Origin: Oscillospiraceae bacterium
Lineage (GTDB): Bacteria > Bacillota > Clostridia > Oscillospirales > Oscillospiraceae
Assembly (NCBI GenBank): GCA_009781855.1
Contig: WQUY01000015.1
Coordinates: 1-43,617, forward strand
Length of the DNA stretch: 43,617 nucleotides
Direction: 5' to 3'
Shown in pieces: positions 666 through 39,972 of the stretch; position 1 is the first letter of the stretch, and each line of letters starts with the position of its first letter. The translations under genes and the position numbers were made by a program. Under the pieces are notes generated by a model. The model was not told where the DNA came from. It saw only the letters and a program-made list of their open reading frames with translations, and searched no databases.

Positions 666-1625
666 ATGAGCAAACAAATTACAGGTAAGCTATATGATAT
701 TCAGGGATTCTCCGTCCATGACGGGCCGGGCATACGGCTGACGTTGTTTTTAAAAGGCTGCCCTCTGCGTTGCCCGTGGTGTCACAGTCCGGAGTCATTG
801 GCATTTCACACAGAGCTGAATTGGATGGGGATCAAATGCATTGGCATTGAAAAATGCGGGCGTTGCTTAGGCGCATGTCCTTCTGGGGCAATTTCACCCG
901 GCGGCAAGAGGCCTATCCTCGGCGGAGGCGATGAAGAGATTCAGCTTGTTACCGTTGACCGTAAAAAATGCGGCAATTGCAGTGCTTGTGCCGATGTTTG
1001 CCCCACGAAAGCGCTCTACATGTGCGGAACAGATTATACCGTCGATGAGATGATGCAGCGCGTGCATCGCGACAAGCCGTTTTTTGAAAAATCGGGCGGT
1101 GGGATTACCATTTCAGGCGGCGAATGTCTTTGTCAGCCCGAATTTGTGCTAGAGCTTCTAAAACGTTGCAAAACTGAGGGTATTCATACGGTCGTAGACA
1201 CCTCGGGATTTGTGCCATGGAAGACGATTGAATCCGTACTTCCGTATACTGATTTATTCCTCTATGACATTAAGGGCATGGACAGCGCACTGCATAAGCA
1301 AGTCATCGGCGTGCCCAATGAGCTGATACTGGAAAATGCGCGAAAGATTGCCGACAGAGGCGGGAAATTTCAAATCAGAATCCCTGTTTTGCCAATGTAT
1401 ACGGATTCTGCTGAAGTTTTTGACGCAATTGGCAAGTTTATACTTACACTTGGTGATGCAGTCCAGGTTGTGCAAATTTTGCCATATCACAACCTTGGTA
1501 CTGCAAAATGGGAGCGGCTGCAAACCTCTGCGCCGGTGTTTGCGGCGGAAGTGCCATCCGAGAATTTGATTCAGGCGCGGAAAAAACAGCTCGAAAGCAT
1601 GGGGCTGAACGTAGTTGTACATTAA
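666..1625 (+). CDS. Glycyl-radical enzyme activating protein (radical SAM, PFL-AE family)
   Basis: A radical SAM protein of 319 residues that installs the glycyl radical on the enzyme encoded just downstream. Close to the N-terminus is GPGIRLTLFLKGCPLRC and then PWC, which is the CxxxCxxC that binds the SAM cluster. It is followed by an inserted double ferredoxin domain (C-x5-CGRCLGACP, then CGNCSACADVCP), typical of activases for dehydratase- and decarboxylase-type glycyl-radical enzymes rather than of plain PFL-AE. ISGGECLCQPEF and DTSGF are further family motifs. I chose the ATG at 666 because GGGGGGA lies just before it. An open frame from 543 exists but has no ribosome site and encodes an unrelated-looking leader. 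The next gene starts 15 bases after the stop, so the two are one operon. Confidence 0.93.
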   Translation: MSKQITGKLYDIQGFSVHDGPGIRLTLFLKGCPLRCPWCHSPESLAFHTELNWMGIKCIGIEKCGRCLGACPSGAISPGGKRPILGGGDEEIQLVTVDRKKCGNCSACADVCPTKALYMCGTDYTVDEMMQRVHRDKPFFEKSGGGITISGGECLCQPEFVLELLKRCKTEGIHTVVDTSGFVPWKTIESVLPYTDLFLYDIKGMDSALHKQVIGVPNELILENARKIADRGGKFQIRIPVLPMYTDSAEVFDAIGKFILTLGDAVQVVQILPYHNLGTAKWERLQTSAPVFAAEVPSENLIQARKKQLESMGLNVVVH

Positions 1626-1640
1626 ATAGGAGGCAGTTAA

Positions 1641-4082
1641 ATGTATACGATTAAACCAATCACGGAACGTGTCCGGAAAATGCGTGAGCAGTATCGCGAG
1701 ACCCAGCCGGCGATATGCACATCGCGCTATAAGCTTATTACTGAATTTTACATGGCTAACCGGGATATGATTGGCAGTCTTAAACGTGCGAAAAATCTGC
1801 ACAACATCTTGTCGCATATAGCGATACGTATCGACAGTGGAGAAGTCATCGTCGGTGCGCAGTCAGGAACATACCGAGCCTGTGCGCTTTATCCGGAAAA
1901 CTCTGTCGCATGGCTGAAAGAAGAGGTTGAAAGTGGGTTTATCTCCACACGAGATATTGACCCATATATTCTGGCGGAGGATGACCGCGATTATATCCTT
2001 GGCACAATAGATTTCTGGATGCAAGAATGCATGAGCGCGAAGGCAGATGCGCAGCTGCTTGACGAATACAAGTCGATTGCGGGAAATGGCGTAACGCCAT
2101 TTGGTCCGGTCGGCCAGGCACAGGCCCCTGTCGGGCATTTCTGCACAGGATATAATACAGCGATACGCAAGGGCTTTGCGGCCATCAAGACAGAAGCTGA
2201 AGCGAAGATGAGAGCGCTCATTGATGATGCGCTCCCCGGTGCAACGATGGAGCAGTATCATTTCTATCGCTCGATAGCCATCGTTTGTGATGGAATTATA
2301 ATATATGCAAAGCGCTATGCCGCACTTGCCGCAGAGATGGCAGAAAATGAGCGAGATCCGGACAGAAAAGCTGAACTCATCTCAATGGCAGAATGCTTAA
2401 ATCACACCGTAGAGCAGCCCGCAAGAAATTTTCATGAGGCGGTGCAATGCTTATTTTTATACCAGACTGCGCTGTGTTTAGATGCGAACATGCACGGTAT
2501 GAGCTTTGGTCGTGTGGATCAATACTTGGGTGATTTTTATCACGCAGATATAGAGTCCGGACGCATTACCCCCGAATATGCGCAAGAACTGATGGATTTG
2601 TTTTACTTAAAGGTTGCCGAGATGAATAAACCATGGGGATATCGCCAAACCATGTCCGCCCCGGGATATACGTCGGGACAGCTGATGACACTCGGCGGGC
2701 TTGATAAGGATGGCAATGATGCGACTAATGGTGTGACTTATATGATGCTGCAATCTGCCGGAAGACTGCTCCTGCATGACCCGCCGCAGGCTCTGCGTAT
2801 TCATAAGAACACTCCGGAAGCATTGTGGGAGGCGGCGATTGAAACGACGAAACTTGCCGGAGGTGTTCCATCATTTGAAAACGATGATGTAATCATCCCG
2901 GCCTTGATGAGCCGTGGACTTTCACTTGAAGATGCGCGTGACTATTGCCTTATTGGTTGCGTTGAACCTGCAGGTTGTGGGACTGAATGGCCTGCCTGCG
3001 GTGGTGTTGGAACCGAAAGCTTTATGAATCTGGCCGCTGCGCTGATTCTTGCAATCAACGATGGACACACAGCAGTGCCTATGCTCAATGGATTTGTTCC
3101 GGCGCCCCTGGGGTCGCCGAATCCGAGAGTTGGCATCAAAACAGGCTACCTCTATGAGATGACCGATATTGACCAAGTAAAACAGGCCTTTAGAGCCCAG
3201 CTTGAATATTTCATCAAATGGCACACCATGATTATCAATAGCTTTGAATACACTGCACGAAACGTTTTGCCGCAGCCGCTGGTTTCCGCGACGATGGCGG
3301 GTTGTATGGAAAGCGGCAAAGATGTCATGTGGGGCGGGGCAAAATATAATTCCACTGGCAATGCCGGAGTGGGCATAGGCAACGTCGCCGATGCACTGAA
3401 CATCATCAATCACTGCTGCTTCCAAAAAAATATCTGTACCACGCGTGAGATGTACGATGCGGTTATGAATAACTGGGAGGGCTACGACGATTTGCGCGCA
3501 TATATTTTAAATGAAGCGCCGCACTTTGGTAACGGACTTCCCGAATGTGATGGGTATGCCGAGTTTGTAGGAAAGTGCTTCTCCGACACGGTAAATGCAC
3601 TCACGGGGCCGAGAGGGCGATATTCGGCGGGACTGTATCCTGTTACGATTAACGTCGCTTTCGGTGCGGCGACGATTGCAACCCCGGACGGGCGCATGAA
3701 AGGGGAACCACTTGCTGACGGTATCGCCGCGCCACAGGGGTATGATACAAATGGCCCGACGGCACTGATCCGCTCCGTTTCGGTCATTAACCAAGGCGAC
3801 TTCCCGAACGGTACGCTTATGAATCTTAAATTCCACCCAACCGCGCTCAAAGGGGCTGATGGATGGAAAAAGCTTTCACTACTCATGCAAACATATTTTG
3901 ATATGGGTGGCATGGAATTGCAAATCAATGTCATCAGCACAGAGACGCTGCGGGATGCGCAAAAAAACCCGGAAAAGCACAAGGACTTGGTCGTGCGCAT
4001 TGCTGGATTTTCGTCGTATTTCGTCGAGCTCCATCCATCAGGGCAGGCGGATCTTATTCGCCGCACCGAGCTTGCAATGTAA
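1641..4082 (+). CDS. Glycyl-radical enzyme (PFL/diol dehydratase family), substrate unknown
   Basis: An 813-residue glycyl-radical enzyme with AGGAGG before the ATG. The thiyl cysteine lies in IGCVEPAG (Cys440) with the general-base glutamate two residues on (Glu442). The radical glycine is Gly789 in VVRIAGFSSYF, 25 residues from the end. In known families the Cys-x-Glu motif marks eliminases (glycerol and propanediol dehydratase, choline TMA-lyase, hydroxyproline dehydratase, isethionate lyase) and the arylacetate decarboxylases. Pyruvate formate-lyase carries Cys-Cys instead, so this is not PFL. The motif after the cysteine (CGTEWPACGG) is not one I can tie to a characterised member. No microcompartment genes accompany it. 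It lies in an operon with its activase and faces an OYE/transport operon. The reaction is probably a radical elimination; the substrate is open. Confidence 0.92.
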   Translation: MYTIKPITERVRKMREQYRETQPAICTSRYKLITEFYMANRDMIGSLKRAKNLHNILSHIAIRIDSGEVIVGAQSGTYRACALYPENSVAWLKEEVESGFISTRDIDPYILAEDDRDYILGTIDFWMQECMSAKADAQLLDEYKSIAGNGVTPFGPVGQAQAPVGHFCTGYNTAIRKGFAAIKTEAEAKMRALIDDALPGATMEQYHFYRSIAIVCDGIIIYAKRYAALAAEMAENERDPDRKAELISMAECLNHTVEQPARNFHEAVQCLFLYQTALCLDANMHGMSFGRVDQYLGDFYHADIESGRITPEYAQELMDLFYLKVAEMNKPWGYRQTMSAPGYTSGQLMTLGGLDKDGNDATNGVTYMMLQSAGRLLLHDPPQALRIHKNTPEALWEAAIETTKLAGGVPSFENDDVIIPALMSRGLSLEDARDYCLIGCVEPAGCGTEWPACGGVGTESFMNLAAALILAINDGHTAVPMLNGFVPAPLGSPNPRVGIKTGYLYEMTDIDQVKQAFRAQLEYFIKWHTMIINSFEYTARNVLPQPLVSATMAGCMESGKDVMWGGAKYNSTGNAGVGIGNVADALNIINHCCFQKNICTTREMYDAVMNNWEGYDDLRAYILNEAPHFGNGLPECDGYAEFVGKCFSDTVNALTGPRGRYSAGLYPVTINVAFGAATIATPDGRMKGEPLADGIAAPQGYDTNGPTALIRSVSVINQGDFPNGTLMNLKFHPTALKGADGWKKLSLLMQTYFDMGGMELQINVISTETLRDAQKNPEKHKDLVVRIAGFSSYFVELHPSGQADLIRRTELAM

Positions 4083-4085
4083 AAA

Positions 4086-4152
4086 CTGATGGGAGTTTGG
4101 CTCCCGTCAGCTAAAAAAGGACGGCTACTCAAATAATGGGTAGTCGTCCTTT
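4086..4152 (-). terminator. Tandem terminators between convergent operons
   Basis: Two hairpins fill the gap between the glycyl-radical gene (plus) and the OYE gene (minus). The first has arms CTGATGGGAG (4086-4095) and CTCCCGTCAG (4101-4110). The second has arms of 15 bases at 4116-4130 and 4138-4152. Read on the minus strand, both are followed by T runs (TTTTTA and TTTTTT), so they are good intrinsic terminators for the minus operon. On the plus strand they have weak or no T tails but could still act as 3' ends. Confidence 0.75.
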
Positions 4153-4178
4153 CGTGATGAGCGTTGCCTTGTTAAATG

Positions 4179-6122
4179 TTACAGCCTGCCAATGTCATTT
4201 GCGATGTGAAATGCCGGACGCGTGGCTTCAGTGATATTGTTAGGAACCAGGCAGTCGCCGATTTGATGAAACTCCGGAGCCAGATAGCGCAGAGCATCGG
4301 CTTCATCTCTGAGCGGAATCTGCCCAACGGCACAGACAATAGTGTCAGACTCAATCGTCCGCTGACCATCCGAATCTTCGACCACAACGCCTCGCTCAGT
4401 TATTTCGACAGCCTTTGTGTTTAATTTCACGGATACGCCGCGCCGCTCAAGTTCAAGCCGTATTGCAAGTCCGTGAAGCATGTTGCCGCCATCATTGAGT
4501 TGTGGGTTCATTTCCACAATAGTGACATCGTGACCAAGTCCCGCGAGATATATCGCAAGTTCTGTTCCAACGAGACCGCCACCAAGTATAACGACTTTGT
4601 TACCTGCTTTTGGAGCATTGCAGTACATCTCATCCGCACTGAGCACATACTTGCGGTCTATGCCCGGGATGTTTGGAATCCATGGGCGGGCGCCGAGTGC
4701 CGCGATAATAACATCCGGTGCCAGCGACTTCACAAGTTCTGGCGTGGCTTCGGTATTTAGCCGCACATCAACACCAGCGGCGGTTGTTGCTGCCGCTTGA
4801 CGCGTGAGATATCCAGTGAGATTTTTCTTAAATGGAACATGATGCTCACAGTTTAGCACGCCGCCGAGCTTGTCCGCTTTTTCGCACAGAGTTACCTCAT
4901 GCCCGCGACTTGCCGCCGTAATCGCCGCTTGCATACCACCGACGCCGCCGCCTGCGACAAGCACTTTTTTCTTGATTACGGGAGGCAGTGCCCGGTCGCA
5001 ATCCAATTCATGCCCGACATGGGGGTTTATGGGACAGAGGAATTGACCTTTCAAAATATGACTTGAGAAACAAGACATACATCGCATACATCTGTTAATC
5101 TCATCCGCGCACCCAAGCCGTGCTTTAAGTGGTAGGTCGGGGTCAGCGATAAGACCGCGTGCGATTTGGATGACATCAGCTTGCCCGGATGCGATGATTT
5201 CTTCCATATGCGCAGGATCAACCAAAGCGCCTACGGTTGCCACCGGGGTTTTTACATGCTTTTTTATCTCTGCTGCATAGTGTACATTGACCCCATCCTG
5301 CAAAAACATGTCGGGATGCGTCACGGTAAAGACTTCCCAAACTTCGTGGCTTCCGGCAGAAACATGAATAAGGTCGAGGTGTCCGTCTAATTGCTTGGCT
5401 ATCGCGATGCCTTCATCGAGGTCATATCCTTTGGGATTGCACTCAGAGCCGGATATGCGCATTTCGATAGGGAACTTAGGGCCAACAGCTTTGCGCACAG
5501 CCTTGCATACATCCACGGCGAAGCGACAGCGGTTTTCCACTGAGCCGCCCCATCTGTCAGTGCGTCTGTTTGTAACAGGTGACATAAACTCGGTGAGCAA
5601 CCAGCCGTGACCGCCATGGATTGTCACCATGCCAAAACCGCAACGTTTTGCCCAGGCTGCTGCATCGGCGTATTGCTGTACGACCGCGGATATCTGCTCT
5701 TCGGTCATTGCCTCAGCCTCGTGCCCGTCTTTCGTTGTGTACGCCATCGGCCCATAAATTTTATGGCCATCCGCTGCTGATGAACGGGCGTTGCTTCCGC
5801 TATGCGAAAGCTCAATCGCCGCAACAGCCCCATGTCGCGTAATAGACTCCGACAGCCGTGTCATTGCGGGCAATCCTGCCGGGTTATCGAGTGCGAGATG
5901 CCCGTAATTAAACCGTCCGTGCGTTGAGCAGATTACAGCATCGCCCACACAAACGGATGCAGCCCCGCCACTGGCCTTTCGCTCATAATACGCGTTGGTT
6001 TCCGGTGTCGGGAAATGCTGTGATGTCATATAAGCAGTCCCGGTTGGAGATGCGAAAATGCGGTTTCGAAAAACGGTGTTGGCTAGAGTTATTGGTGAAA
6101 ACAAGTTAGGATATTTGATCAT
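4179..6122 (-). CDS. Old Yellow Enzyme-type FeS flavoprotein reductase (2,4-dienoyl-CoA reductase/TMADH-like)
   Basis: A 647-residue protein with three parts. An FMN-binding TIM barrel covers about 1-330 (MIKYPNLFSPITL start, LSHSGSN, HGGHGWLL followed by SPVTNRRTDRWGGS). A [4Fe-4S] site sits near 345 (CMRCMSC, then FLCP). A C-terminal FAD/NAD(P)H domain has VAGGGVGG and VILGGGLVG nucleotide-binding turns. This is the layout of 2,4-dienoyl-CoA reductase, trimethylamine dehydrogenase and enone/enoate reductases such as BaiCD/BaiH and daidzein reductase. It moves hydride from NAD(P)H through FAD, FeS and FMN to an activated C=C, or runs as a dehydrogenase. The start at 6122 is preferred over a 24-codon extension because it has GAGG upstream and the family's N-terminus. 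It begins 7 bases after the permease stop, so it is the last gene of the minus operon. The substrate is unknown. Confidence 0.9.
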   Translation of the reverse strand: MIKYPNLFSPITLANTVFRNRIFASPTGTAYMTSQHFPTPETNAYYERKASGGAASVCVGDAVICSTHGRFNYGHLALDNPAGLPAMTRLSESITRHGAVAAIELSHSGSNARSSAADGHKIYGPMAYTTKDGHEAEAMTEEQISAVVQQYADAAAWAKRCGFGMVTIHGGHGWLLTEFMSPVTNRRTDRWGGSVENRCRFAVDVCKAVRKAVGPKFPIEMRISGSECNPKGYDLDEGIAIAKQLDGHLDLIHVSAGSHEVWEVFTVTHPDMFLQDGVNVHYAAEIKKHVKTPVATVGALVDPAHMEEIIASGQADVIQIARGLIADPDLPLKARLGCADEINRCMRCMSCFSSHILKGQFLCPINPHVGHELDCDRALPPVIKKKVLVAGGGVGGMQAAITAASRGHEVTLCEKADKLGGVLNCEHHVPFKKNLTGYLTRQAAATTAAGVDVRLNTEATPELVKSLAPDVIIAALGARPWIPNIPGIDRKYVLSADEMYCNAPKAGNKVVILGGGLVGTELAIYLAGLGHDVTIVEMNPQLNDGGNMLHGLAIRLELERRGVSVKLNTKAVEITERGVVVEDSDGQRTIESDTIVCAVGQIPLRDEADALRYLAPEFHQIGDCLVPNNITEATRPAFHIANDIGRL

Positions 6123-6129
6123 GCCAAAT

Positions 6130-8175
6130 TTACCTCTTTTTGAGTTTTGGGTCGAGTGCATCACGCAAGCCATCACCCAGCAAGTTGAAAGCAAGCACCG
6201 TCAACATGATGAATATACTTGGGAAGGTCATGAGCCACGGAGATGTGCGTATAAAATCTCTGCCGGCTGAAACTAAAGTTCCCCATTCCGGTGCGGGTAC
6301 AGGAACACCAAATCCCAAGAACGACAGCGATGCACCCACGATAATCGCGATGCCCAGACTTGCGGTAATTGTAACAATGAGCGGTGCAAAGCTGTTGGGA
6401 AGAACTTGCGTAAATACAATACGAATATTGCTCAGTCCAACTGCTTTTGCCGCCTCAACAAATTCTTGGCCGCGAACTGTAAGTACGGCAGCCCTTGTTA
6501 TTCGGATGAAAATAGGTATAGCATTTACCCCGACAGCTATAATAAGGTTTTGAAGGCTTTGGCCTAGTACAATGACAATAACCATTCCGAGCAGTATGCT
6601 GGGGATTGATGCCAGGATGTCGGATGCACGCATGATAATATCATCTATAGCCCCGCCATAGAACCCTGCGACAGCACCGAAAAAGATTCCAATAAGCGCG
6701 GCGATTCCTACCGAGCCAAATCCGATGGCTATAGAGTATCGTGTTCCATAAATTGTGCGCAGGAACAGGTCACGCCCCATATTGTCGGTACCGAATAAGT
6801 TCTGTGCGCTGGGGGGATGGAAGCGTTGTGGACTGGTCGCGGTGACAGACTCAAAGCTGATAAACAGCGAGCCGATAAAAATGATGAACAAAAGCCCAAC
6901 GATGAAAAGACCTGCCATTGCACTCTTACTTTTTTTCATGTTGTGGAAAATTTCAACCACATGGCTGCGCTTCTTATATTTCTTTGAAACAAGCGTATCC
7001 CCATTATCTGTTGATTGATTGACTTGCACTGAAGCATGTGTGGTGGCGGCTTTTGGCACATCTTCGGATTGTGCTGAAACGTAAACTTGAGGCTCTGGCT
7101 CAGCCACAATAACCTCTACCTCTTGGGCAGCAGGAGTTTCAGTGATTTTTACATCCGGCACGGACGCAGGTTTGTTGAGATGGATTACAACCTGAGGCGG
7201 TGCTTTTTCCGCACGCTTCTTATTGCGCCTCTTTCTTTTAGCACCGACGACGTACTGCGCCTTGATTCTTGGGTCAACAAGCACATATGATAAATCAACG
7301 AGCAGCTGTAGCAAAACGTAAAGCACTGTCGTCATTATTACTGCGCCGGTAGCTGTTGTAACATCACGCGCCATAACCGCGTCAACGGTCATACGCCCAA
7401 CGCCCGGCCAAGCGAACACAACCTCAATGACGGCAGAACCCGCAATCGAAATGCCAAGAGAATTTCCTACTGTAGTCAGTATTGGAATCCATGCATTACC
7501 CAGTGCGTGTTTTCGAATGACAGACTTTTCCGGCACGCCTTTTGCCCGTGCTGTGCGCAAATAGTCTGAACTCAAAACCTCAAGCATACTGGAACGTGTC
7601 TGTCTTGTGGATGCAGCCATGAGCATAAGGCCACTACACACACCCGGTAGGATAAGGCTTCTAAACCCATCTCGATTTCCCGCAGCGGGAAGCCACTGGA
7701 GTTCATGAGCGAATATCAGTATCAACAAAAGCCCCAGGAAAAAGCTCGGCATAGACATGCCTATCATCGTAAACGATGTTGTCAAAGTATCTATAAGTTT
7801 TCCTGCTCGTCTTGCGGCGAGTATCCCCATCGGAATAGAAATACTCAGGCCGACAACGAGGGAGGCAAGTGTCAATATTAAGGTGTTGGGCAGTCTGTCA
7901 ATGTAAGTGTTCCACACACTGATCCCCGTGGTATCAGATACACCCAAATCTCCTTGCACAAGGTTTAGCATGTACCTCCAATACCTGTAAATCATTGGCC
8001 TATCGAGGTTAAACTGCGACCTAAGCTCTGCGATTTCCTCTTCAGTCATTACCCCGGTAATCATGTTGTCAACAATTGTTCCGGGTGCTGCCTCCATGAG
8101 CGCAAATACGATGAAAGACACGACGATAAGCAATGGAATCAGCCATAGGATACGTTTTATCACATAGCGAATCAA
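6130..8175 (-). CDS. Single-chain DppB-DppC fusion, dipeptide/oligopeptide/nickel-type ABC permease
   Basis: 681 residues that read as two complete permeases in one frame. Residues 1-310 are DppB-like: MIRYVIKRILWLIPLL opening, EAA loop at EVLSSDYLRTARAKG, end at DPRIK. A hydrophilic Lys/Arg- then Pro/Glu/Val-rich linker runs to about 400. Residues 400-681 are DppC-like: FGTDNMGRDLF, EAA loop at EFVEAAKAVGLSNIR, GDGLRDALDPK end. Normally these are separate subunits of about 310 and 280 residues. The start is TTG at 8175, behind GAGGGGG with eight bases between. The binding protein gene lies upstream, but no DppD/DppF-type ATPase occurs in the window, so the ATPase must come from elsewhere. 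The cargo is probably the substrate of the neighbouring enzymes. Confidence 0.9.
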   Translation of the reverse strand: MIRYVIKRILWLIPLLIVVSFIVFALMEAAPGTIVDNMITGVMTEEEIAELRSQFNLDRPMIYRYWRYMLNLVQGDLGVSDTTGISVWNTYIDRLPNTLILTLASLVVGLSISIPMGILAARRAGKLIDTLTTSFTMIGMSMPSFFLGLLLILIFAHELQWLPAAGNRDGFRSLILPGVCSGLMLMAASTRQTRSSMLEVLSSDYLRTARAKGVPEKSVIRKHALGNAWIPILTTVGNSLGISIAGSAVIEVVFAWPGVGRMTVDAVMARDVTTATGAVIMTTVLYVLLQLLVDLSYVLVDPRIKAQYVVGAKRKRRNKKRAEKAPPQVVIHLNKPASVPDVKITETPAAQEVEVIVAEPEPQVYVSAQSEDVPKAATTHASVQVNQSTDNGDTLVSKKYKKRSHVVEIFHNMKKSKSAMAGLFIVGLLFIIFIGSLFISFESVTATSPQRFHPPSAQNLFGTDNMGRDLFLRTIYGTRYSIAIGFGSVGIAALIGIFFGAVAGFYGGAIDDIIMRASDILASIPSILLGMVIVIVLGQSLQNLIIAVGVNAIPIFIRITRAAVLTVRGQEFVEAAKAVGLSNIRIVFTQVLPNSFAPLIVTITASLGIAIIVGASLSFLGFGVPVPAPEWGTLVSAGRDFIRTSPWLMTFPSIFIMLTVLAFNLLGDGLRDALDPKLKKR

Positions 8176-8205
8176 CTGATATGCCCCCTCTTTGTTTTTT
8201 ATTTA

Positions 8206-8237
8206 GTTTGACCGGGGCTGCACAGCCCCGGTTAAAC
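8206..8237 (-). promoter_or_regulatory. Strong intercistronic hairpin between binding-protein and permease genes
   Basis: GTTTGACCGGGGCTG (8206-8220) pairs with CAGCCCCGGTTAAAC (8223-8237) across a two-base loop, with one G-T pair. On the minus strand no T run follows. It therefore looks like an mRNA-stabilising or partial-attenuation hairpin, which would leave the binding protein in excess over the permease, a common arrangement in ABC importer operons. Confidence 0.6.
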
Positions 8238-8273
8238 TTTGTTCACAGTCAATCAGACTTCAAAAGCGAAGAC

Positions 8274-9902
8274 CTAATCCAAAACTCTGTGAATATTTCT
8301 CATGCAGGCAAAATCTCCGAACATGAAGTCGATTCCTGCAACGCCTCTTACACATGCCGCTGCGTTGACCAAGAAGAACAGGTTAAATCCCGGGGGATCC
8401 TCTGCCATAATTTCTTGCATACGGAGGTAATGAGCTCTGCGTGCATTTAAATCATCGATGCTGCGTGCATCTTCAATCATCTGTGCGATTTCAGGATTGT
8501 TGTACGAAATTCTGTTTTGGCCGCCAAATGGCAGGAATACTTGAGCTACCGAGCCTGCGTTAGGAGTGACAGCGCCGACCCATATAATCATCTGGGATTG
8601 GTTGTTATCAAACGTTACGTAAGATGCAAGGCCTGCCGGATCCATAGCATTAATCTCAATATTTAGTCCGATTTGCTGCAATTGAGCTTGGACAACCTCT
8701 GCTGCTGTGACGTTTGTGGCAATCGCTGTTGCCAGTTCAACGGTTTCACCGTTCCAGACAGAACGCTCAAGATATGCTCTGGCTGCGTCAAGGTCGAATG
8801 GAACAATCGGGATATCATTGTTTCTGAACTCTGTCAAGCCCCAAAGGGTTCCGGTTGTTTCAGGAATAGCGAAATCGCCTCTTGCAACTGCGGCAATTTC
8901 TTCTCTATCGATGGCAGAAGCCACTGCTCTTCTGAAGTACAAGCAGCTCGCAAGCTCATCCGATTGGTTGAAGCCAAGATAATTCATGACAACGGGGCTC
9001 CATCTGTACACAACAAAGTTTTCTGTGTCTGCTTCAAGTATAGGTAGGTCAACGAAAGAAATTGAGAAACATACATGACTTTCTTCATTTTGAAGCATTG
9101 TAAATCGGGTGCTTACTTCCGGAACAAAACGCAGAACTAAATCTCTCGTAATCGCAGGGCCATCCCAGTAAGCATCATTGCGTGTCAGCGCCACATAGTC
9201 GTTTGTTGAGAAAGAGCTGACTGTGTACGGGCCGGTTCCAATCCAGGAGCCGGTTTCAGCATTCTCGGTCATGGCTCTTTCGTTAAGGATTCCGGCTGAC
9301 GCAGCAGCCATCTCGAACAAGAAGTCAACATTTGCTGAATTGAGCGTTATTTCAACAGTGTGCGAATCAAGAACATTTACATTTTGAACGTCACGCCATC
9401 TGTCAAAAGCTATAGTTCCGGGATGCGCCTGCGCTATTTGCACAGTAAATGCGACGTCCTCGGCTGTGAAGTGGTCTCCGTTGTGGAAGTAAACATCATC
9501 GCGAAGATGGAATATAAATGTTTGGCTATCAGCGGTTTCCCATCTTTCCGCGAGCATTGGGCCATATTGCCCTTCGCCAAGGAAGCGAACAAGTCTGTCA
9601 TAGATGAGGTTGTACACCCAAATTGTTGATGACGGGGACCCGGCCGGAGACAGCGGATTGACAACAGCAATCGGATTGTTGTCAACGATAATGTCTAAGA
9701 AGTCGGCAAACTGTGCACCTTCAGGTGGCGGAGCAGTGGGGTCTGGTGCAGGAGCTGTAGGAGTACCTGGCGCTGCCGGCTCTGTCGAACCCGCAGGAGT
9801 ATCTGGTGCTGCGGGTCCGGCAGGCGAACAGGCAGCAATCAGCCCCAAGCACATGACTGTCACGATAAACAGGGCGAGTATGCGTGTAGTTTTCTTTTCC
9901 AT
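8274..9902 (-). CDS. Extracellular solute-binding lipoprotein, family 5 (DppA/OppA-like)
   Basis: 542 residues, starting at an ATG behind GGAG. The N-terminus is a lipoprotein signal (KKTTRILALF, hydrophobic core, lipobox LIAAC) with a lipidated Cys near residue 25, followed by a Pro/Ala/Thr-rich tether of about 40 residues. The mature part carries family 5 features such as YDRLVRFLGEGQYGPMLAE, ETADSQTFIFHLRDDV, and AVASAIDREEIA. Family 5 proteins bind di- and oligopeptides but also nickel, heme, opines and other small organics, so the sequence does not fix the ligand. It is followed by the fused permease and presumably delivers the cluster's substrate. Gly/Ala/Thr/Pro-rich low complexity is limited to the tether. 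Confidence 0.92.
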   Translation of the reverse strand: MEKKTTRILALFIVTVMCLGLIAACSPAGPAAPDTPAGSTEPAAPGTPTAPAPDPTAPPPEGAQFADFLDIIVDNNPIAVVNPLSPAGSPSSTIWVYNLIYDRLVRFLGEGQYGPMLAERWETADSQTFIFHLRDDVYFHNGDHFTAEDVAFTVQIAQAHPGTIAFDRWRDVQNVNVLDSHTVEITLNSANVDFLFEMAAASAGILNERAMTENAETGSWIGTGPYTVSSFSTNDYVALTRNDAYWDGPAITRDLVLRFVPEVSTRFTMLQNEESHVCFSISFVDLPILEADTENFVVYRWSPVVMNYLGFNQSDELASCLYFRRAVASAIDREEIAAVARGDFAIPETTGTLWGLTEFRNNDIPIVPFDLDAARAYLERSVWNGETVELATAIATNVTAAEVVQAQLQQIGLNIEINAMDPAGLASYVTFDNNQSQMIIWVGAVTPNAGSVAQVFLPFGGQNRISYNNPEIAQMIEDARSIDDLNARRAHYLRMQEIMAEDPPGFNLFFLVNAAACVRGVAGIDFMFGDFACMRNIHRVLD

Positions 9903-9992
9903 TTTACATTCTCCTTTGTTATTTATGGTGTCGTGATTCCTGAATCTGTTTTTATGAAGCGAGAAACAGATTCTTTTTCCACTTTACACTAC

Positions 9993-11147
9993 TCACTTTT
10001 GCGCATACGCGGAATGAGCGCTTAAAACAATTTCTTGAATCGGGAAACGCTTGGGGCAATGCTTGTTACACAGTCCGCACCGCAAGCAATCTATCGCTCC
10101 GTGTCGGTCTATGTTGTACTGAAGCCTTGGCATCTCTGAATTTGAGAACATCTGCTCATCGTTGACAAGCTCAATAATGCGCGGAGCATCAATCCCTGCG
10201 GCACAAGGCATACAGCAATAACACGTCGTGCAAAGATATGCTCTGTTTGCATAATACGCATCTCTGATTTTTGCTGCATCCAACGACGCCCACACATCCA
10301 GTGTTCCGGGAATAACAGCTTCGGCGTATGCAAAACATTTTTCCGCATGACCGATGGTTGGGCATTCAGATTCTATAGACAATTGTGCTGATGAGACTTC
10401 TTCAAGAGCCAACACCCACTGGATACACCGTTCATCCAGCTCTTGTTGTATGTGCACACTGTCCAGCACTTCTTTGACATTTGTGGGGATGTTCTTTAGC
10501 AGGCGACCTGCCTTCGTAACATCGGTTGCGATGACACCGTTGTGATACTCTTGCGTAAATTTAAATCCACCGACGCCAGGATGGTGCTTATAATCAAGGA
10601 GGGATAGTTCCATTTGCACAAATGCCCAATGGGGACATGTGTTGTTAATGTCTTTGAGATAATGTGGATCATCGTGAAACGCAATCCCAATATGGCTTGC
10701 AGTGCCGGTTTCTGTCACATTCTTTACCCACTGGGATATGTCAATTGCCTTCATTGCCGCCCAATTGAATCGATTGACACCATCTAAGATGCAAAAGTCA
10801 ACAGAAACAAGCTCAAACAATTCGAGCTGTGCGGCGAGCAAATCGCTGAGTTCTTGCTGTGACGACACGCCATGTGTAGGAATGTTGACGGCAAGCTTAA
10901 CCTTATCTCGATATCCGCCACTCAGTGCAGATTTAACATATGCGCAAGCTTTTTTAGGATTTTCAAACAGCAGCGGATATCCCAAGTTTATGAAGTTGAC
11001 GCCACGATCCACCATGTATCTTATCGTATCGGCACGCTCGTCGGCGCTTGTGCTTTCAGGATTTGCAATAGCCTCTTCACGGCAAAGCACACCGAGCGAT
11101 AACTCCGAAATTAACCAATCGAGGATTCCAAACTTTCGATACCTCAG
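9993..11147 (-). CDS. Aldo/keto reductase-like protein with C-terminal 4Fe-4S domain, apparent CTG start
   Basis: The aldo/keto reductase barrel opens with LRYRKFGILDWLISELSLG, continues with a DRGVNFINLGY strand, and ends in two cysteine clusters (CTTCYCCMPC and CLRCGLCNKHCP). This matches the ferredoxin-linked aldo/keto reductase-like family of anaerobes. The family N-terminus lies upstream of the first GTG (11090), with no ATG in frame back to a stop. The first usable codon is CTG at 11147, with AGGAGGG seven bases before it. An out-of-frame ATG overlaps the same site. The product from CTG would be 384 residues. The classic catalytic Tyr/Lys set is not obvious, so the reaction may differ from ordinary carbonyl reduction. 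It follows the cupin gene by about 20 bases and belongs to the same operon. Confidence 0.85.
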   Translation of the reverse strand: MRYRKFGILDWLISELSLGVLCREEAIANPESTSADERADTIRYMVDRGVNFINLGYPLLFENPKKACAYVKSALSGGYRDKVKLAVNIPTHGVSSQQELSDLLAAQLELFELVSVDFCILDGVNRFNWAAMKAIDISQWVKNVTETGTASHIGIAFHDDPHYLKDINNTCPHWAFVQMELSLLDYKHHPGVGGFKFTQEYHNGVIATDVTKAGRLLKNIPTNVKEVLDSVHIQQELDERCIQWVLALEEVSSAQLSIESECPTIGHAEKCFAYAEAVIPGTLDVWASLDAAKIRDAYYANRAYLCTTCYCCMPCAAGIDAPRIIELVNDEQMFSNSEMPRLQYNIDRHGAIDCLRCGLCNKHCPKRFPIQEIVLSAHSAYAQK

Positions 11148-11167
11148 CGCTCATCCCTCCTGCATTA

Positions 11168-12217
11168 TTAGTCTTCGTATTGTGTTTTAGAGCCGTCTCT
11201 GGATTTCCATGGGGAATCGTGTGTACCATCGAGATTTACAACGATGAATGAGAAAGGCTTATCTACCCAGCGGGTGGTTTGCGGAAGATGTGAAAATCCT
11301 CTCGGACATATGTAAACCGTCGGAACCTCACATGCATAGCGCTCATCCTCTTCACCCATAGCAATTTCAACGCATGATCCGTTGTGAAGCGGGTCATCTG
11401 CATCAAGCCCAGCAACGATAAGCAGCTCTTCACAGGGGTGACTGTGCGATTCTCCGGCGCGATGCCAAACGCCGCTACCGGTATAATGACCCCATAGGAA
11501 GTTAAGCTCAAAGCCCAGCAGGTCGCTTCCGTACAGCCATACAAGGTTGTCGGCATTGCCCGGCCCCATTTCGCCCATTTGGGCAGAATGGATAACACCC
11601 CATTCGTCAATGTAATTGTTGTAACCCATACCGCTGCCGTCTTTTGTCTCTACACGGTATTTATCTTGTACTTTCATCTTGTCAAAGCCTGTGAATTTGC
11701 CCGTCTTTGGGTCAACACTCGTGGCGAAAATGCGCGAATAAGTCTCATATTTTGTGCATCCCGCAACAGGTGGCTTAAGCTCCGATTCAGGGATTATTTT
11801 CCCACTGTATACGGGATCCATTGATATTACAAAATGCACGAAAGGACGCTTGACATTTTTTACCTTTACAGGCCCATGCGGCGTACCCTTAGGGATACAA
11901 ACGGCATAATTTCGATTGAAAGTGTGAAGCTCACGTTCTTCTCCGATTTCTATTGAAACTTCAGCCCCAAGGTCAATCATGTCGTCAAGGTTTGTTGATG
12001 CAAATACTAAAACCTCGTCATACGGGTGAACAACCATGCCCTCAATGGGGTGAAACTGTGTTTCTTCTTTGATAAAGCAGTAAGAAAAACTTCCGCCAAA
12101 GCCTTCCATATCGGCTTTGCCTTCCATCCAGAAAAGCTCAAAGGGATAGAGCCCTTCCGGACCTTTTTGCCATTTAAGCGGTTTTACCAGGTGCTGGTGC
12201 AGCGTTGATTTTGGCAT
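11168..12217 (-). CDS. Double-cupin protein of unknown function
   Basis: 349 residues starting MPKSTLHQHLVKPL behind GGAGGG; a longer open frame to 12346 has no ribosome site. Two cupin-like barrels are visible. The first has HPYDEVLVFAS and KGTPHGPVKVKN. The second has HRAGESHSHPCEELLIVAG and RGFSHLPQTTRW. The His/Glu spacing in each fits the two cupin motifs that hold a metal. I do not recognise a characterised enzyme. Cupins in catabolic operons include isomerases, decarboxylases and dioxygenase-fold lyases, and with no oxygen here an isomerase, lyase or binding role is more likely. It is the first gene of the minus operon and so probably acts early in the pathway. Confidence 0.8.
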   Translation of the reverse strand: MPKSTLHQHLVKPLKWQKGPEGLYPFELFWMEGKADMEGFGGSFSYCFIKEETQFHPIEGMVVHPYDEVLVFASTNLDDMIDLGAEVSIEIGEERELHTFNRNYAVCIPKGTPHGPVKVKNVKRPFVHFVISMDPVYSGKIIPESELKPPVAGCTKYETYSRIFATSVDPKTGKFTGFDKMKVQDKYRVETKDGSGMGYNNYIDEWGVIHSAQMGEMGPGNADNLVWLYGSDLLGFELNFLWGHYTGSGVWHRAGESHSHPCEELLIVAGLDADDPLHNGSCVEIAMGEEDERYACEVPTVYICPRGFSHLPQTTRWVDKPFSFIVVNLDGTHDSPWKSRDGSKTQYED

Positions 12218-12356
12218 TTTTAATAACCCTCCAAATACAAGAATATTTTCGATGTAATATACTGAAAAATATAGCATTGTGCTTGTGGGTTGGTAAAGAA
12301 ACAATTTGTGATGTATGTGCAATGTTGCTAATGTGTTTTGTGACAATTGTGCAAAG

Positions 12357-12387
12357 TTGGCGTGCGGTTAATCCAACCGCACGCCAA
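12357..12387. repeat. Perfect 13-bp inverted repeat downstream of the LysR gene
   Basis: TTGGCGTGCGGTT (12357-12369) and AACCGCACGCCAA (12375-12387) with a five-base loop. It lies between the LysR stop and the cupin operon start, both on the minus strand. No T run follows on either strand, so it may be a factor-assisted terminator for the LysR transcript or a structure in the cupin leader. The rest of 12218-12417 holds AT-rich sequence where the cupin operon promoter should be, including ATCACAAATTG on the minus strand, which resembles a motif in the UroD promoter. Confidence 0.55.
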
Positions 12388-12417
12388 TGAGTTTGCTTGT
12401 GTTGTAACAAGATGTTT

Positions 12418-13320
12418 TTAGTTATTTTCTTGTTTTTCCAAGTGTGAAATCAGTACGTCATACAATAGCTCCGCGTCAGGAGACAATTGCTCACCTTTTC
12501 TCTTTATAAGGTGGAGTCGCCATTGTAAAGACTCTTCCTGAAACGGTATCGCCACCAGATTTCTTTTTGAAAACGCCGCCGCCATCGGTTGGAGTGCCAT
12601 CGTCGCGATACCTACCTGAGCTTCATGGTCGGCTAATTCAAACAAAACCCTCATGCTGTCTGCCCGGTTTTCGACCCAAAGTTCGACCCCGGCATTTTCT
12701 GCCTCGCTCAGTAGCGAAGAATAGGATTTGGTATAACCATGCATGATGGTCAGTGGGGATCCTATCAAATCTTTCACACGCACGGACGGAAGCTTTGCAA
12801 GCGGATGTTTTTTTTGTACATAGATGGCGAAGTTGGACGAACATACGTTAACGGCGTCAAACAATTCGGAATCAATAGGAGCAGGGCATAGCGCAAGCTC
12901 CACAACCTTAGATTTTACGGCAATTTCGGCACCGAGGTCGCTCTCGTTTCTCAAGTCAAGGTATATATGCGGATATTTGGCTTCAAAAGTTCGTATAGGC
13001 GTTTCGGCAAATTCCTCAAAGGCACCACTGGACAATACAAATGGAACGCGCTGGTTAAGGTGTTTGCCTATATGAAAATATCGTTCACATGCGTCGATAT
13101 TATAAATAATCTGTTCGGCGATAGGTAATAAAAATTTTGCGTGCTCGGTCAGCCGCAACTCTTTCCCTCTCCGTATGAACAGCGTGTATTGCAGCTCCGA
13201 CTCAAGTCGCTGCATTGACATGCTGATGCCCTGTGGCGAAATAAAACAGTTTTCTGCTGCCCGCACAAAACTTCTGTACTTGCAAATTTCAAGAAAATAT
13301 CGTATTTGCTGAAACTCCAT
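12418..13320 (-). CDS. LysR-family transcriptional regulator
   Basis: 300 residues. The N-terminal winged helix-turn-helix is typical: MEFQQIRYFLEICKYRSF, AAENCFISPQGISMSMQRLE, LFIRRGKELRLTEHA. The C-terminal part fits the LysR effector-binding fold, with LSSGAFEEFAETPIRTFE as the first strand-helix. The start at 13320 is chosen for the family N-terminus and GAGAGGG upstream; an ATG six codons earlier lies in the ribosome site. It is divergent from the UroD-like gene and sits directly upstream of the cupin operon, a classic position for the pathway regulator. The ligand is probably the substrate or an intermediate of this cluster. Confidence 0.92.
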   Translation of the reverse strand: MEFQQIRYFLEICKYRSFVRAAENCFISPQGISMSMQRLESELQYTLFIRRGKELRLTEHAKFLLPIAEQIIYNIDACERYFHIGKHLNQRVPFVLSSGAFEEFAETPIRTFEAKYPHIYLDLRNESDLGAEIAVKSKVVELALCPAPIDSELFDAVNVCSSNFAIYVQKKHPLAKLPSVRVKDLIGSPLTIMHGYTKSYSSLLSEAENAGVELWVENRADSMRVLFELADHEAQVGIATMALQPMAAAFSKRNLVAIPFQEESLQWRLHLIKRKGEQLSPDAELLYDVLISHLEKQENN

Positions 13321-13454
13321 AAAATATGACCCTCTCATTGAACGCGAACATCACCAAATGTTGCTTGACGATTATGGCATATGAAGTGTAGGGTGAATTG
13401 TATCACAATTTACCCAGTTCTACAATTCTATTCTTTTATAACAGGAGGAGCAAT
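13321..13454. promoter_or_regulatory. Divergent LysR/UroD control region
   Basis: A weak plus-strand promoter TTGACG (13365-13370), 18 bases, TAGGGT (13389-13394) is followed by ATTGTATCACAAT (13397-13409), a short inverted repeat with ATTGT/ACAAT arms. A T-N11-A spacing suits LysR binding. The AGGAGG of the UroD-like gene is at 13443-13448. The operator role is inferred from position and symmetry only. Confidence 0.4.
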
Positions 13455-14537
13455 ATGATTCCCAAATTTGATCCGAAAGAGCTGAATGTAGTCGGAGAAA
13501 CGGTTGCGTATGTATATATGCCAAGCATAAAAATATACGACTATCCGGTTACGGAAAAAGAGGCCATCACTTCTATGTTTAAGGGCAAAGCCTATTGGCA
13601 AATGGTCGGCGCTGAGCGGTGTCCATTCGTGCCACGGCTTCTGCCTGACAATACTGTGCGCGGACTTGTTTTTGAGCACCAGCCATTTGATGTACTGACA
13701 GAAGCCGGTGGTAAGGACATGTTCGGCATTGAGTGGGAATACATCGCGCAGGTTGGCGGTTCTACAGTGCGCCCAGGTGTGCCGTTTTTGGAAGATATCA
13801 GCCAGTGGCGTGAAAAAATCGTCTGGCCGGATATTGATAGCTGGGATTGGGAAGGCTCTGCGAAAATCAACAACGACACATACCTGGCTTCTGACAAATT
13901 CAATCTTGCTTGGTTTCAAACCGGGTGGTTTGAACGGCTTATAGCGCTCATGGATTTTGAGGGTGCGCTTATGGCGATATTTGATGAGGATTCGAAAGAG
14001 GAAGTCAAAGCATTCTTTGAAAAGCTTACCGATTTGTATATTCGGATTTTCGACAAATATATTACATATTTCCCGAAAGTTGACGGCTTCTTTGTCCACG
14101 ACGACTGGGGCTCGCAGAAAGAAACGTTTTTCTCTCCTGAGCTTGTTGCAGAGATGATAGTGCCCTACATGAAAAGGGTCACGGATTTCCTACACGTTAA
14201 AGGAAAATGCTGTGAACTGCATAGTTGTGGGCAAATCTTAAAGCAAGTGCCGAACATCATTGCTGCGGGGTGGGATGCATGGAATCCTCAGCTTATAAAT
14301 GACATGGACGCGATTTATGATTTGTATGGCGACAAAATTGTTCTGGGCATCGCGCCCGAGCCTTTTGATATTGAGTCGGCGACAGAAGAGGAGCAACGTG
14401 CTGCTGCGAGGGCATATGCGGACAAGTATTGCCGCCCAGACAAACCGACATACCTGAATATGTATAGCACAGCTTTCCTTACCCCTGCCTATAGGGAAGA
14501 ACTTTATATCCGTTCTCGCGAAAACTATAGTAAGTGA
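13455..14537 (+). CDS. Uroporphyrinogen decarboxylase-family (MtaA/UroD-like) protein
   Basis: 360 residues from the ATG at 13455, six bases after AGGAGG; an in-frame extension to 13398 has no ribosome site. The protein has the UroD/MtaA barrel. Near residue 255 lies ELHSCGQ, equivalent to the H-x-C zinc motif of the corrinoid methyltransferases MtaA/MtbA. Heme-pathway UroD residues are not apparent and no other heme genes are near, so heme synthesis is unlikely. Related UroD-fold proteins act in methyl transfer from O-, N- or S-methyl compounds, usually with a corrinoid protein, but none is encoded here. Divergent from the LysR regulator, it is likely part of the same regulon. Its exact reaction is unknown. 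Confidence 0.82.
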   Translation: MIPKFDPKELNVVGETVAYVYMPSIKIYDYPVTEKEAITSMFKGKAYWQMVGAERCPFVPRLLPDNTVRGLVFEHQPFDVLTEAGGKDMFGIEWEYIAQVGGSTVRPGVPFLEDISQWREKIVWPDIDSWDWEGSAKINNDTYLASDKFNLAWFQTGWFERLIALMDFEGALMAIFDEDSKEEVKAFFEKLTDLYIRIFDKYITYFPKVDGFFVHDDWGSQKETFFSPELVAEMIVPYMKRVTDFLHVKGKCCELHSCGQILKQVPNIIAAGWDAWNPQLINDMDAIYDLYGDKIVLGIAPEPFDIESATEEEQRAAARAYADKYCRPDKPTYLNMYSTAFLTPAYREELYIRSRENYSK

Positions 14538-38185: not shown

Positions 38186-38485
38186 CAATAAATGCCATGA
38201 CGGAGAGAAACTCCACCATAATCGGCAAACTCGCCATGAAGCGAGCAGAGATACTGCGGTTGGTGCAAGCAGGTGCTGAGGGCTGGAAAATACACTCCCG
38301 AGCTGATGTTTTGAAAACCCGATTTATATTGGGCTACTAGAAGCATTCGTCTGCCCCACGTCACGGGGGAAAGGATTATTGGATCCTTAAGAGTGACGGC
38401 TCAGCTTGAGCCGTAATCAGGGTGGTACCGCGGGTTGTTATTCTCGTCCCTGAGTGAGTCCTAACTTGCTCAGGGACGTTTTTAT
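38186..38485 (+). ncRNA. T-box leader, apparently tyrosine-specific
   Basis: The hallmark AGGGTGGTACCGCGGG is at 38419-38434. Stem I starts near 38221 (ATCGG and CTCG pairing with CGAG and CTGAT near 38299-38307). It has the AG-bulge sequence AGAGA and the apical loop GGTGCAA. On its 3' side the specifier loop reads GGAAAATACACTCC, with UAC (Tyr) in the usual place before ACU. The acceptor-binding bulge reads UGGU, which pairs with an A discriminator as in tRNA-Tyr; tRNA-Trp, with G, would need UGGC. CAGGG in the antiterminator can pair with CCCTG, competing with the terminator at 38445-38485. Uncharged tRNA-Tyr should therefore allow read-through into the lyase gene. Confidence 0.9.
38445..38485 (+). 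terminator. Terminator of the T-box leader
   Basis: CGTCCCTGAG (38445-38454) pairs with CTCAGGGACG (38469-38478), followed by TTTTTAT. Its 5' arm overlaps the 3' arm of the antiterminator, as expected for a transcription-attenuating T-box. Confidence 0.9.
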
Positions 38486-38523: not shown

Positions 38524-39972
38524 ATGAGTAACGTTAAATTCATGTCAGGAGAAAACATTCCGCTCGAAATGCACAAAGTGCGTATGGTGCAAAAGGTTAA
38601 TCTCATACCGGTCGAAGACAGATTAGAAGCAATGCAGGATGCGGGATTTAATACATTCCTGCTTCAAAACCGCGATGTATTTATGGACATGCTGACCGAT
38701 AGTGGAGTCAATGCAATGAGCCAGAACCAATACGCCGCAATGATGCAGGCAGATGACAGCTATGCTGGGTCTGAAACATATTACCGCCTGGAGGCAGTCC
38801 TTCAGGACATATTTGCAATGAAATATTTTCTGCCGGCGCACCAAGGCCGTGCATGTGAAAATATCATTGCACAAACCCTCGTTAAGCCCGGACAAGCCAC
38901 AATCATGAACTACCACTTCACAACAACAAAAGCGCACATCACACTCAATGGCGGCTCTGTCGAAGAGATACTCACTGACGAGGGCTTCAAAATCAAAAGT
39001 GACGTGCCTTTCAAAGGTGACATCGATATTGATAAACTCAAAGAGTGCATTAATAGGATTGGTACGGAAAACATCGCATTTGTGAGAATTGAAGCAGGGA
39101 CAAATCTTATCGGCGGACAACCTGTGTCCATGGGGAACATGCGTGAAGTTTCTAAAATTTGTCGTGATAAAGGCCTCAAGCTGGTGTTTGACGCAAGTCT
39201 TTTGGGCGATAATCTGTACTTTATAAAAGTGCGTGATGCGGCATATAAAGATGTCAATATTAAAGATATTACCCGCGAAATCGCTTCGCTTATGGATGTT
39301 GTATATTTTTCTGCGCGTAAACTCGGCTCGGCCAGAGGTGGCGGCATCCTGTGTTCAGACGAGCAGCTTTACCTCAAAATGCGTGAACTTGTGCCTCTTT
39401 ACGAAGGATTTTTGACCTATGGTGGTATGTCTGTGCGTGAGATGGAAGCGCTGGCTGTAGGACTGCAAGAAACAATGGACTTTGATGTGATAAACCAGAC
39501 TCCAATTATCGTTGAGGCGCTATGCAACGAGCTTCTGAAACATGATGTGCCGGTTGTAACTCCACCGGGTGGTCTTGGCTGCCATGTAGATGCTATGGAA
39601 TTTTGTGCGCATATCCCGCAAACGCAATACCCTGCCGGAGCGCTTGCTGCGTCGATTTATATTGCAAGTGGTGTGCGCTGTATGGAGCGCGGTACATTGA
39701 GCGAGCAGCGCAATGAAGATGGTAGTGAGCGGCTTGCCGAGATGGAGCTGGCGCGTATCGCTGTGCCGAGGCGCGTATTCACATTGTCGCAAGTCAAATA
39801 CACAGCCGATCGTATCAACTGGCTGTACAAGAACCGTGGGCTTATTGGCGGTCTGGAATTTGTAGAAGAACCCAAAATGTTGAGATTCTTCTTCGGGCGA
39901 CTGAAGCCAATCGGAAATTGGCCTGAGGTGCTGGCAAAGAAATTCAGAGAGGATTTTGGCGATAGTCTTTAA
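38524..39972 (+). CDS. Tryptophanase/tyrosine phenol-lyase family beta-eliminating lyase, divergent
   Basis: 482 residues, with GGGAGAAAG before the ATG. It aligns along its length with tyrosine phenol-lyase and tryptophanase: DRLEAMQDAGFNTFLL, TDSGVNAMS, YAGSETYY, HQGRACEN, FTTTK, NLIGGQPVSM, FDAS, FSARKLGSARGGG (PLP lysine), GVRCMERG (carboxylate Arg) and a final KMLRFFFGRLKPIG. Two positions differ from tyrosine phenol-lyase as I remember it: the Arg after DAT (next to the PLP oxygen) is Leu (DASLLGDN), and the phenol-binding Arg in DARRF is Met (DAMEF). The substrate is therefore uncertain. These enzymes normally degrade amino acids to pyruvate and ammonia, but here control is by a Tyr T-box. 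A synthetic or other role is possible. Confidence 0.88.
   Translation: MSNVKFMSGENIPLEMHKVRMVQKVNLIPVEDRLEAMQDAGFNTFLLQNRDVFMDMLTDSGVNAMSQNQYAAMMQADDSYAGSETYYRLEAVLQDIFAMKYFLPAHQGRACENIIAQTLVKPGQATIMNYHFTTTKAHITLNGGSVEEILTDEGFKIKSDVPFKGDIDIDKLKECINRIGTENIAFVRIEAGTNLIGGQPVSMGNMREVSKICRDKGLKLVFDASLLGDNLYFIKVRDAAYKDVNIKDITREIASLMDVVYFSARKLGSARGGGILCSDEQLYLKMRELVPLYEGFLTYGGMSVREMEALAVGLQETMDFDVINQTPIIVEALCNELLKHDVPVVTPPGGLGCHVDAMEFCAHIPQTQYPAGALAASIYIASGVRCMERGTLSEQRNEDGSERLAEMELARIAVPRRVFTLSQVKYTADRINWLYKNRGLIGGLEFVEEPKMLRFFFGRLKPIGNWPEVLAKKFREDFGDSL

Follow-up and report, generated by a model that had tools for sequence, protein, structure and literature searches.

Do nine neighbouring genes, among them those of a glycyl-radical enzyme (GRE), an OYE-type flavoprotein, importer components and a UroD-like protein, form one catabolic module, and if so, on which compound does it act? 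We addressed these questions by analyzing the window (the whole stretch of DNA under study, 43,617 bases), which corresponds to bases 1–43617 of contig C15 in a draft genome of 2.4 Mb (92% complete). The host, an apparently anaerobic bacterium, has relatives that live in the gut and the rumen.

Organization of the locus

The first base of the window is also base 1 of the contig, and the first gene of the set, at position 666, is close to the contig's left end. A radical-SAM GRE activase gene (666..1622, plus strand; TIGR02494) and the GRE gene (1641..4079, plus strand; PFL-like and Gly_radical domains in Pfam) form a tight pair, with 15 bases between the stop of the former and the start of the latter. 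They are followed by six minus-strand genes running in one direction, which encode (i) an OYE-FAD ene-reductase of the BaiCD/FadH-like, Fe-S type (4182..6122; Oxidored_FMN and Pyr_redox_2), (ii) a fused DppB-DppC-type ABC permease (6133..8175; two BPD_transp_1 domains in a single 681-aa protein), (iii) a family-5 solute-binding lipoprotein (8277..9902; SBP_bac_5), (iv) an AKR-scaffold protein with a C-terminal ferredoxin (Fe-S) domain (9996..11090; weak Aldo_ket_red, Fer4_17), (v) a double-cupin protein (11171..12223; assigned from an alignment of six full-length homologues) and (vi) a LysR-type regulator (12421..13338; HTH_1 and LysR_substrate). The GRE and OYE operons are convergent. The gene of the UroD-fold protein, a candidate substrate methyltransferase (MT1; 13455..14534, plus strand; HDDWG and HSCG motifs), is divergent from the LysR gene.

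An earlier interpretation of this DNA, made without database searches (the sequence-only reading), had placed genes of these families at these positions. This was confirmed: all nine ORFs are intact, as judged from the ORF list and family profiles, and Pfam backs every family except the cupin. Promoter-like and terminator-like sites showed no excess over shuffled sequences (24 versus 22.7 and 15 versus 16.0, respectively), so the limits of the operons rest on spacing and strand. Microcompartment genes were not seen among the ORFs of the window, which were judged by eye.

One module or several neighbouring units

All nine genes were seen together in the window alone; no relative examined carries the complete set. 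Among 27 loci fetched around GRE matches (L023–L034 and L080–L094, with flanks of varying length, some of which stop at contig ends), an OYE gene was found nearby in 6, a UroD-like gene in 3 and a cupin gene in none; the first count is possibly too high, since L083 and L091 were included after the OYE gene there was already visible. In G251, a genome of the same genus, the closest GRE (80% identity), OYE (76%) and UroD (62%) genes are located on three contigs (C17, C9 and C29, respectively). Locus L080, with a GRE of 80% identity, lacks OYE and UroD genes, and L097, with an OYE of 76% identity, lacks a GRE gene.

The set may therefore consist of two or three independent units, a GRE with its activase acting on a small diol or alcohol, and the OYE, cupin, AKR and importer genes with the LysR and UroD-like genes serving another compound. 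We take this alternative seriously but regard it as rather doubtful. The low counts in GRE-fetched loci, the distribution over three contigs in G251 and the convergence of the two operons are in its favour, as is a GRE paralogue (55% identical) in the window's own genome, whose surrounding ORFs look, by eye, like alcohol dehydrogenases. However, a GRE-OYE-cupin array on one strand occurs in G181 (L058), activase, LysR, GRE and OYE genes are found together in G225 (L102), and the arrangements OYE-activase-GRE and UroD-GRE-activase are present in G153 (L091) and G280 (L101), respectively.

Other partial combinations were also observed (loci L095–L114 and L116–L127 were mostly chosen for co-located or closest matches). 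OYE and UroD genes are adjacent in L095, cupin and AKR genes stand side by side in L059 (41%) and L060 (20%), and in L056 a cupin gene is accompanied by ATPase-like ORFs, permeases, a binding protein and an OYE gene. The window's own genome contains a UroD-binding protein-fused permease arrangement (L109) and an OYE-binding protein-permeases arrangement (L110). The GREs adjoining UroD genes in L108 and L111 are only 30–31% identical and fall outside the subfamily.

Gene pairs were counted in genomes of the taxonomic family, with at most 5 GRE, 6 OYE and 10 UroD candidates scored per genome and the window's own contig excluded; the genomes are related and not independent, so that Fisher and Poisson values overstate certainty. 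Among the matches listed, and with corrected placement, 5 OYE-UroD pairs (0.13 expected), 2 GRE-OYE pairs (0.14 expected) and 1 GRE-UroD pair (0.13 expected) were less than 300 bases apart, while below 3 kb there were 5 GRE-UroD pairs (1.27 expected) and 4 GRE-OYE pairs (1.42 expected). Within 10 kb, GRE-OYE pairs were not above chance (7 observed versus 5.8 expected under an uncorrected null that allows overlapping placements and so overstates the expectation). The clustering of GRE and OYE genes was therefore dropped as the statistical mainstay.

The uniqueness of the full set, together with the recurring pairs and triples, indicates that the parts are reshuffled between cassettes. We lowered slightly our estimate that the genes form one functional module because of the three-contig split in G251, and we still incline, by a little, towards it. 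The sequence-only reading had proposed one regulon. Several gene types do recur adjacent to each other, and UroD-like, GRE and corrinoid protein genes share their distribution over 200 genomes, but the full set was encountered nowhere else among the loci looked at; in view of the low counts in the 27 loci and the split in G251, co-regulation of the whole set is an inference. Conservation of the neighbours in relatives, on which the same reading had made its module depend, is lacking for the complete set and present for several pairs.

The glycyl-radical enzyme and its activase

The GRE contains a Cys-x-Glu motif (C440-V-E442) and a glycyl motif (G789), both of which are conserved throughout the subfamily in an alignment of 49 GREs. 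CxE is conserved among GRE eliminases according to PMC8473560. We consider it likely that the enzyme is a 1,2-eliminase. Other GREs expel water, trimethylamine or sulfite by 1,2-elimination. The protein shares with the known eliminases (glycerol/propanediol dehydratase, CutC, HypD, IslA and HpsG) the Cys-x-Glu loop, the glycyl domain and an adjoining radical-SAM activase gene, but differs from them in scoring under every listed substrate-specific NCBIfam cut-off and in a loop signature of its own, GCVEP[AG]G..EWPACGG, which its close relatives in the alignment share together with PVGHF and DANMHG[IM]SFGR.

The GRE scores below cut-off against all NCBIfam GRE models, the top one being the general TIGR01774 (574.5 bits, cut-off 678.2). 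Scores against specific models were 542.6 bits for HpfG (cut-off 1000), 475.5 for CutC (1050), 468.6 for HypD (1100) and 462.3 for HpsG (1000), the remaining named families scoring lower still. Membership in the named families (CutC, HypD, HpfG/HpsG, PFL and the indoleacetate/HPA decarboxylases) was rejected, since the scores are far under the curated equivalog cut-offs, even in the best specific case (HpfG). The activase exceeds the cut-off of TIGR02494 (326.7 versus 174.35 bits) and stays under all substrate-specific activase cut-offs shown. The sequence-only reading had found no characterised GRE pathway that matched the locus, and these scores agree with it.

By sequence, B12-independent glycerol dehydratase (1r8w) scores best among solved structures, and H166 and H285 of the GRE align with His residues of 1r8w that we take to be active-site residues. 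This would fit an enzyme that simply dehydrates glycerol or propane-1,2-diol, in an island that handles diols or polyols. We nevertheless consider such an enzyme unlikely: the subfamily has an EWPACGG-type segment where 1r8w has the GWHD stretch, and we know of no part played by UroD, OYE or cupin proteins in diol use.

In L080 (6413–9186) the GRE gene, the closest found outside the window, is followed by a DUF169 gene, one ORF, an AKR gene and an ABM-domain gene. The paralogous GRE gene of the window's genome (L035) likewise has a member of this ABM cluster nearby.

Distribution of the GRE subfamily, UroD-like and corrinoid proteins

Of 200 genomes belonging to the taxonomic family, 38 contained matches to the GRE subfamily (E≤1e-170), and many carry several members of this subfamily, which lies outside the named GRE families. 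Twelve GRE loci belong to MAGs whose titles name Oscillospiraceae, Clostridiales, Bacillota or Candidatus Alloscillospira, and some of the titles give the source (sheep rumen, omasum or duodenum; roe deer colon).

The distribution was analyzed with the matches listed (129 GRE in 38 genomes, and 150 OYE and 150 UroD in 43 genomes each; the window's own contig excluded). The GRE subfamily is present in 35 of the 43 genomes with listed UroD matches versus 3 of the 157 others, weaker matches being counted as absent (the OYE and UroD tallies are 79 and 54 genomes). A stand-alone corrinoid protein is listed in 39 of the 43 UroD genomes compared with 34 of the 157 others; this count was made from short open frames with a limit near E 1e-43 (88 in 73 genomes) and leaves out stand-alone matches just below the cut in G307, G212 and G261, as well as longer (fused or MetH-size) frames.

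The four UroD genomes for which no stand-alone corrinoid protein is listed are G202, G207, G266 and G278. No corrinoid match at E≤1e-25 was obtained from G202 and G207, which possess several UroD and GRE genes; this counts against the corrinoid model presented below unless the assemblies miss the gene.

At first look, unconfirmed candidates numbered up to 82 of the OYE type (G203), 32 GRE (G336) and 35 UroD-like (G248), in genomes of 2.0–3.2 Mb, including G176. Neither G176 nor G203, both of which show the OYE expansion, has a GRE-subfamily match at E≤1e-170.

The UroD-like protein and a distant one-carbon hub

The UroD-like protein has the UROD fold, and true UROD enzymes are its top structural matches. 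It has no match among the NCBIfam models; against the PDB it gave two chance-level sequence matches (E 0.21), and a profile of 19 UroD-like proteins found none at E≤0.01. The motifs HSCG/HCCG and DDWG are present in 28 and 30 of 31 aligned proteins, respectively.

Relatives with 33–42% identity are encoded in operons with a pterin methyltransferase (MT2) and a corrinoid protein in eight genomes (L116–L123), and in L119 an activase-GRE pair adjoins such an operon. Among the matches listed, 14 UroD-corrinoid pairs less than 3 kb apart were observed in 11 genomes versus 0.44 expected. Of the 12 UroD-like proteins of the window's clade, none is part of an MT2-corrinoid operon; the one in L126 (51% identical) is encoded beside a corrinoid gene.

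In the genome, which is 92% complete, the sole B12-binding_2 match falls on a different contig (C83), together with MT2, FolD, FchA and Fhs genes. An Fhs-FchA-FolD-MT2-corrinoid operon is present both there (G000:C83, L115) and in G251 (C15 of that genome, L127), in neither case with a substrate methyltransferase gene beside it, and it is apparently a shared one-carbon hub. Further neighbours of the hub in L115 resemble, by eye, amino-acid genes. The sequence-only reading was right that the window contains no corrinoid protein gene, and the unlinked hub on C83 would account for this absence.

Given the UroD relatives in MT2/corrinoid operons and the separate hub without a substrate methyltransferase, the UroD-like protein is best read as a putative corrinoid-dependent methyltransferase, probably an O-demethylase, that would feed the distant hub. 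The methyl-transfer step, which had earlier been proposed as optional, is strengthened by the same operons and by the free-standing hub. MttB, another MT1 family, had no match in any of the 12 genomes tested. According to PMC13222342, the O-demethylases MtvB, OdmB, VdmB and MtoB fall in or near the UroD superfamily of CdmB. By description, the window protein resembles the Mtv, Odm, Vdm, Mto and Cdm systems in its UROD-fold MT1 and in having relatives encoded with a corrinoid protein and MT2; it differs in that its gene lies inside a GRE/OYE/importer cassette, apart from a single corrinoid/MT2/Fhs hub. A decarboxylase or other UROD-fold enzyme in place of a methyltransferase is quite unlikely, for although true UROD enzymes are the best structural matches, no NCBIfam model matches and the UroD-rich G202 and G207 lack the corrinoid match, the 33–42% identical relatives partner MT2 and corrinoid proteins in eight genomes and have the HxC and DDWG motifs in common with the window protein.

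The flavoprotein, AKR-scaffold protein, cupin and importer

The OYE protein carries the four-Cys motif CMRCMSCFSSHILKGQFLC, with a Cys spacing of 2-2-11 in the alignment. It shares a two-domain architecture and four cysteines with the OYE-FAD Fe-S flavoenzymes BaiCD and 2,4-dienoyl-CoA reductase, but differs from BaiCD in its score against the BaiCD equivalog (407.1 bits, cut-off of 825 not reached; NCBIfam) and in its spacing, which is 2-3-11 to 13 for the OYE-type family according to the review PMC11574389.

In the case of the AKR-ferredoxin protein, the cysteine clusters are retained (alignment of five). The canonical catalytic tetrad of AKRs is Asp/Tyr/Lys/His; at these positions the window protein has Asn, Phe, Asn and Asp, respectively, when aligned with the reference in L081 (just 22% identical), and the same pattern is common to both close relatives, L059 and L100. 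These substitutions make an ordinary aldo-keto reductase unlikely, and the earlier proposal that this protein reduces the product is doubtful, the tetrad being absent. The three AKR-scaffold ferredoxin proteins possibly form a family that has been repurposed for electron transfer or as Fe-S enzymes.

The cupin had no Pfam match at E≤0.001 and none in NCBIfam or among PDB sequences, and was assigned from His/Glu motifs, judged by eye, that are conserved in six homologues; its single-sequence structure model (mean pLDDT 34) was left unused. A search of 199 other genomes found five further full-length copies, confined to two genomes, and four of these copies adjoin another module gene.

The binding protein and permeases of an Opp/Dpp-type ABC importer are present (Pfam). 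The dedicated importer of the sequence-only reading is thus borne out as regards these components, but no ABC ATPase gene was seen by eye among the window's listed ORFs. In L056, two ORFs of an ABC-ATPase-like cluster, considered ATPases by cluster and position, lie beside the permeases. Fused DppB-DppC permeases of about 680–690 aa occur three times in the window's genome (window 6133–8175, L109 11927–13999 and L110 17018–19060), and the two halves are separate genes in L056 and, in the same genome as the window, at L110 4564–6479.

A possible pathway

From the gene families, active-site motifs, recurring pairs, MT2/corrinoid operons of the UroD relatives and genomic hub described above, we infer the substrate, the order of steps, the co-regulation and every reaction in this organism. 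Our tentative proposal, to which we give somewhat less than even weight, is that the genes form an anaerobic catabolic island, which imports and breaks down a small organic compound with a methyl group, most likely a methoxylated plant aromatic or a compound of the phenylpropanoid type. The identification of the substrate as a methoxylated plant compound is equally tentative. None of the genes points to one particular compound.

The compound would be imported by the family-5 binding protein and the fused permease, with ATPases encoded elsewhere. The UroD-like protein would move its methyl group to the corrinoid protein encoded on another contig, and the hub operon (MT2, FolD, FchA and Fhs) would transfer it to tetrahydrofolate and oxidise it to formate, with a gain of ATP. 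The activated GRE would abstract hydrogen at a hydroxyl-bearing carbon, and loss of a leaving group from the neighbouring carbon would yield a carbonyl compound. The OYE flavoprotein may reduce the C=C bond of an unsaturated intermediate, and the cupin and AKR-scaffold ferredoxin proteins may act on, or give electrons to, intermediates. The LysR regulator, divergent from the UroD-like gene, would control the set.

Taken together with the one-carbon hub elsewhere in the genome, the UroD connection provides a testable hint at methylated substrates and at energy drawn from the methyl group. If the proposal is true, a group of radical enzymes with no assigned function in plant-fibre ecosystems becomes accessible, and the anaerobic degradation of methoxylated plant compounds can be tested directly.

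A far more specific and very improbable version is that the GRE subfamily is a radical ether/C-O lyase, which would cleave lignin- or lignan-type Ar-CH(OH)-CH(OAr)- units anaerobically. Hydrogen would be taken from the carbinol carbon and the phenol expelled by 1,2-elimination, while UroD-type demethylases would take methoxy groups and OYE proteins would reduce the resulting enone. The expanded, reshuffled GRE/OYE/UroD sets would then amount to a combinatorial system that handles methoxylated plant phenolics anaerobically. To our knowledge, no GRE takes part in the gut lignan pathway. That pathway (benzyl ether reductase and guaiacol lignan methyltransferase; PMC9560768) resembles our proposal, by description, in that demethylation by a methyltransferase is paired with reductive steps, likewise on plant compounds that carry methoxy groups.

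In CC-licensed PMC text we found no paper linking a GRE to beta-aryl ethers or lignin and, mostly from listings, no title or abstract opening that joins the GRE subfamily with UroD methyltransferases and a distant hub. The consulted sections of PMC11574389 treat GREs and OYE-type flavoenzymes separately, and PMC9888536 and PMC10805028, represented here by search matches, contain the searched terms in their text, where such a link is possible. Each single part of the locus is of a known kind; what stands out in these data is that a GRE subfamily without a name, and much expanded, is connected through its genome distribution and, in some cases, gene order with hub-unlinked UroD-type methyltransferases.

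A T-box leader elsewhere in the window

A T-box leader (window 38188–38454; 94.4 bits, gathering score 93) was detected directly before a gene of the tryptophanase/tyrosine phenol-lyase family (38524–39972). T-box control is typical of biosynthesis or tRNA-charging genes, and here it precedes a member of a degradative family.
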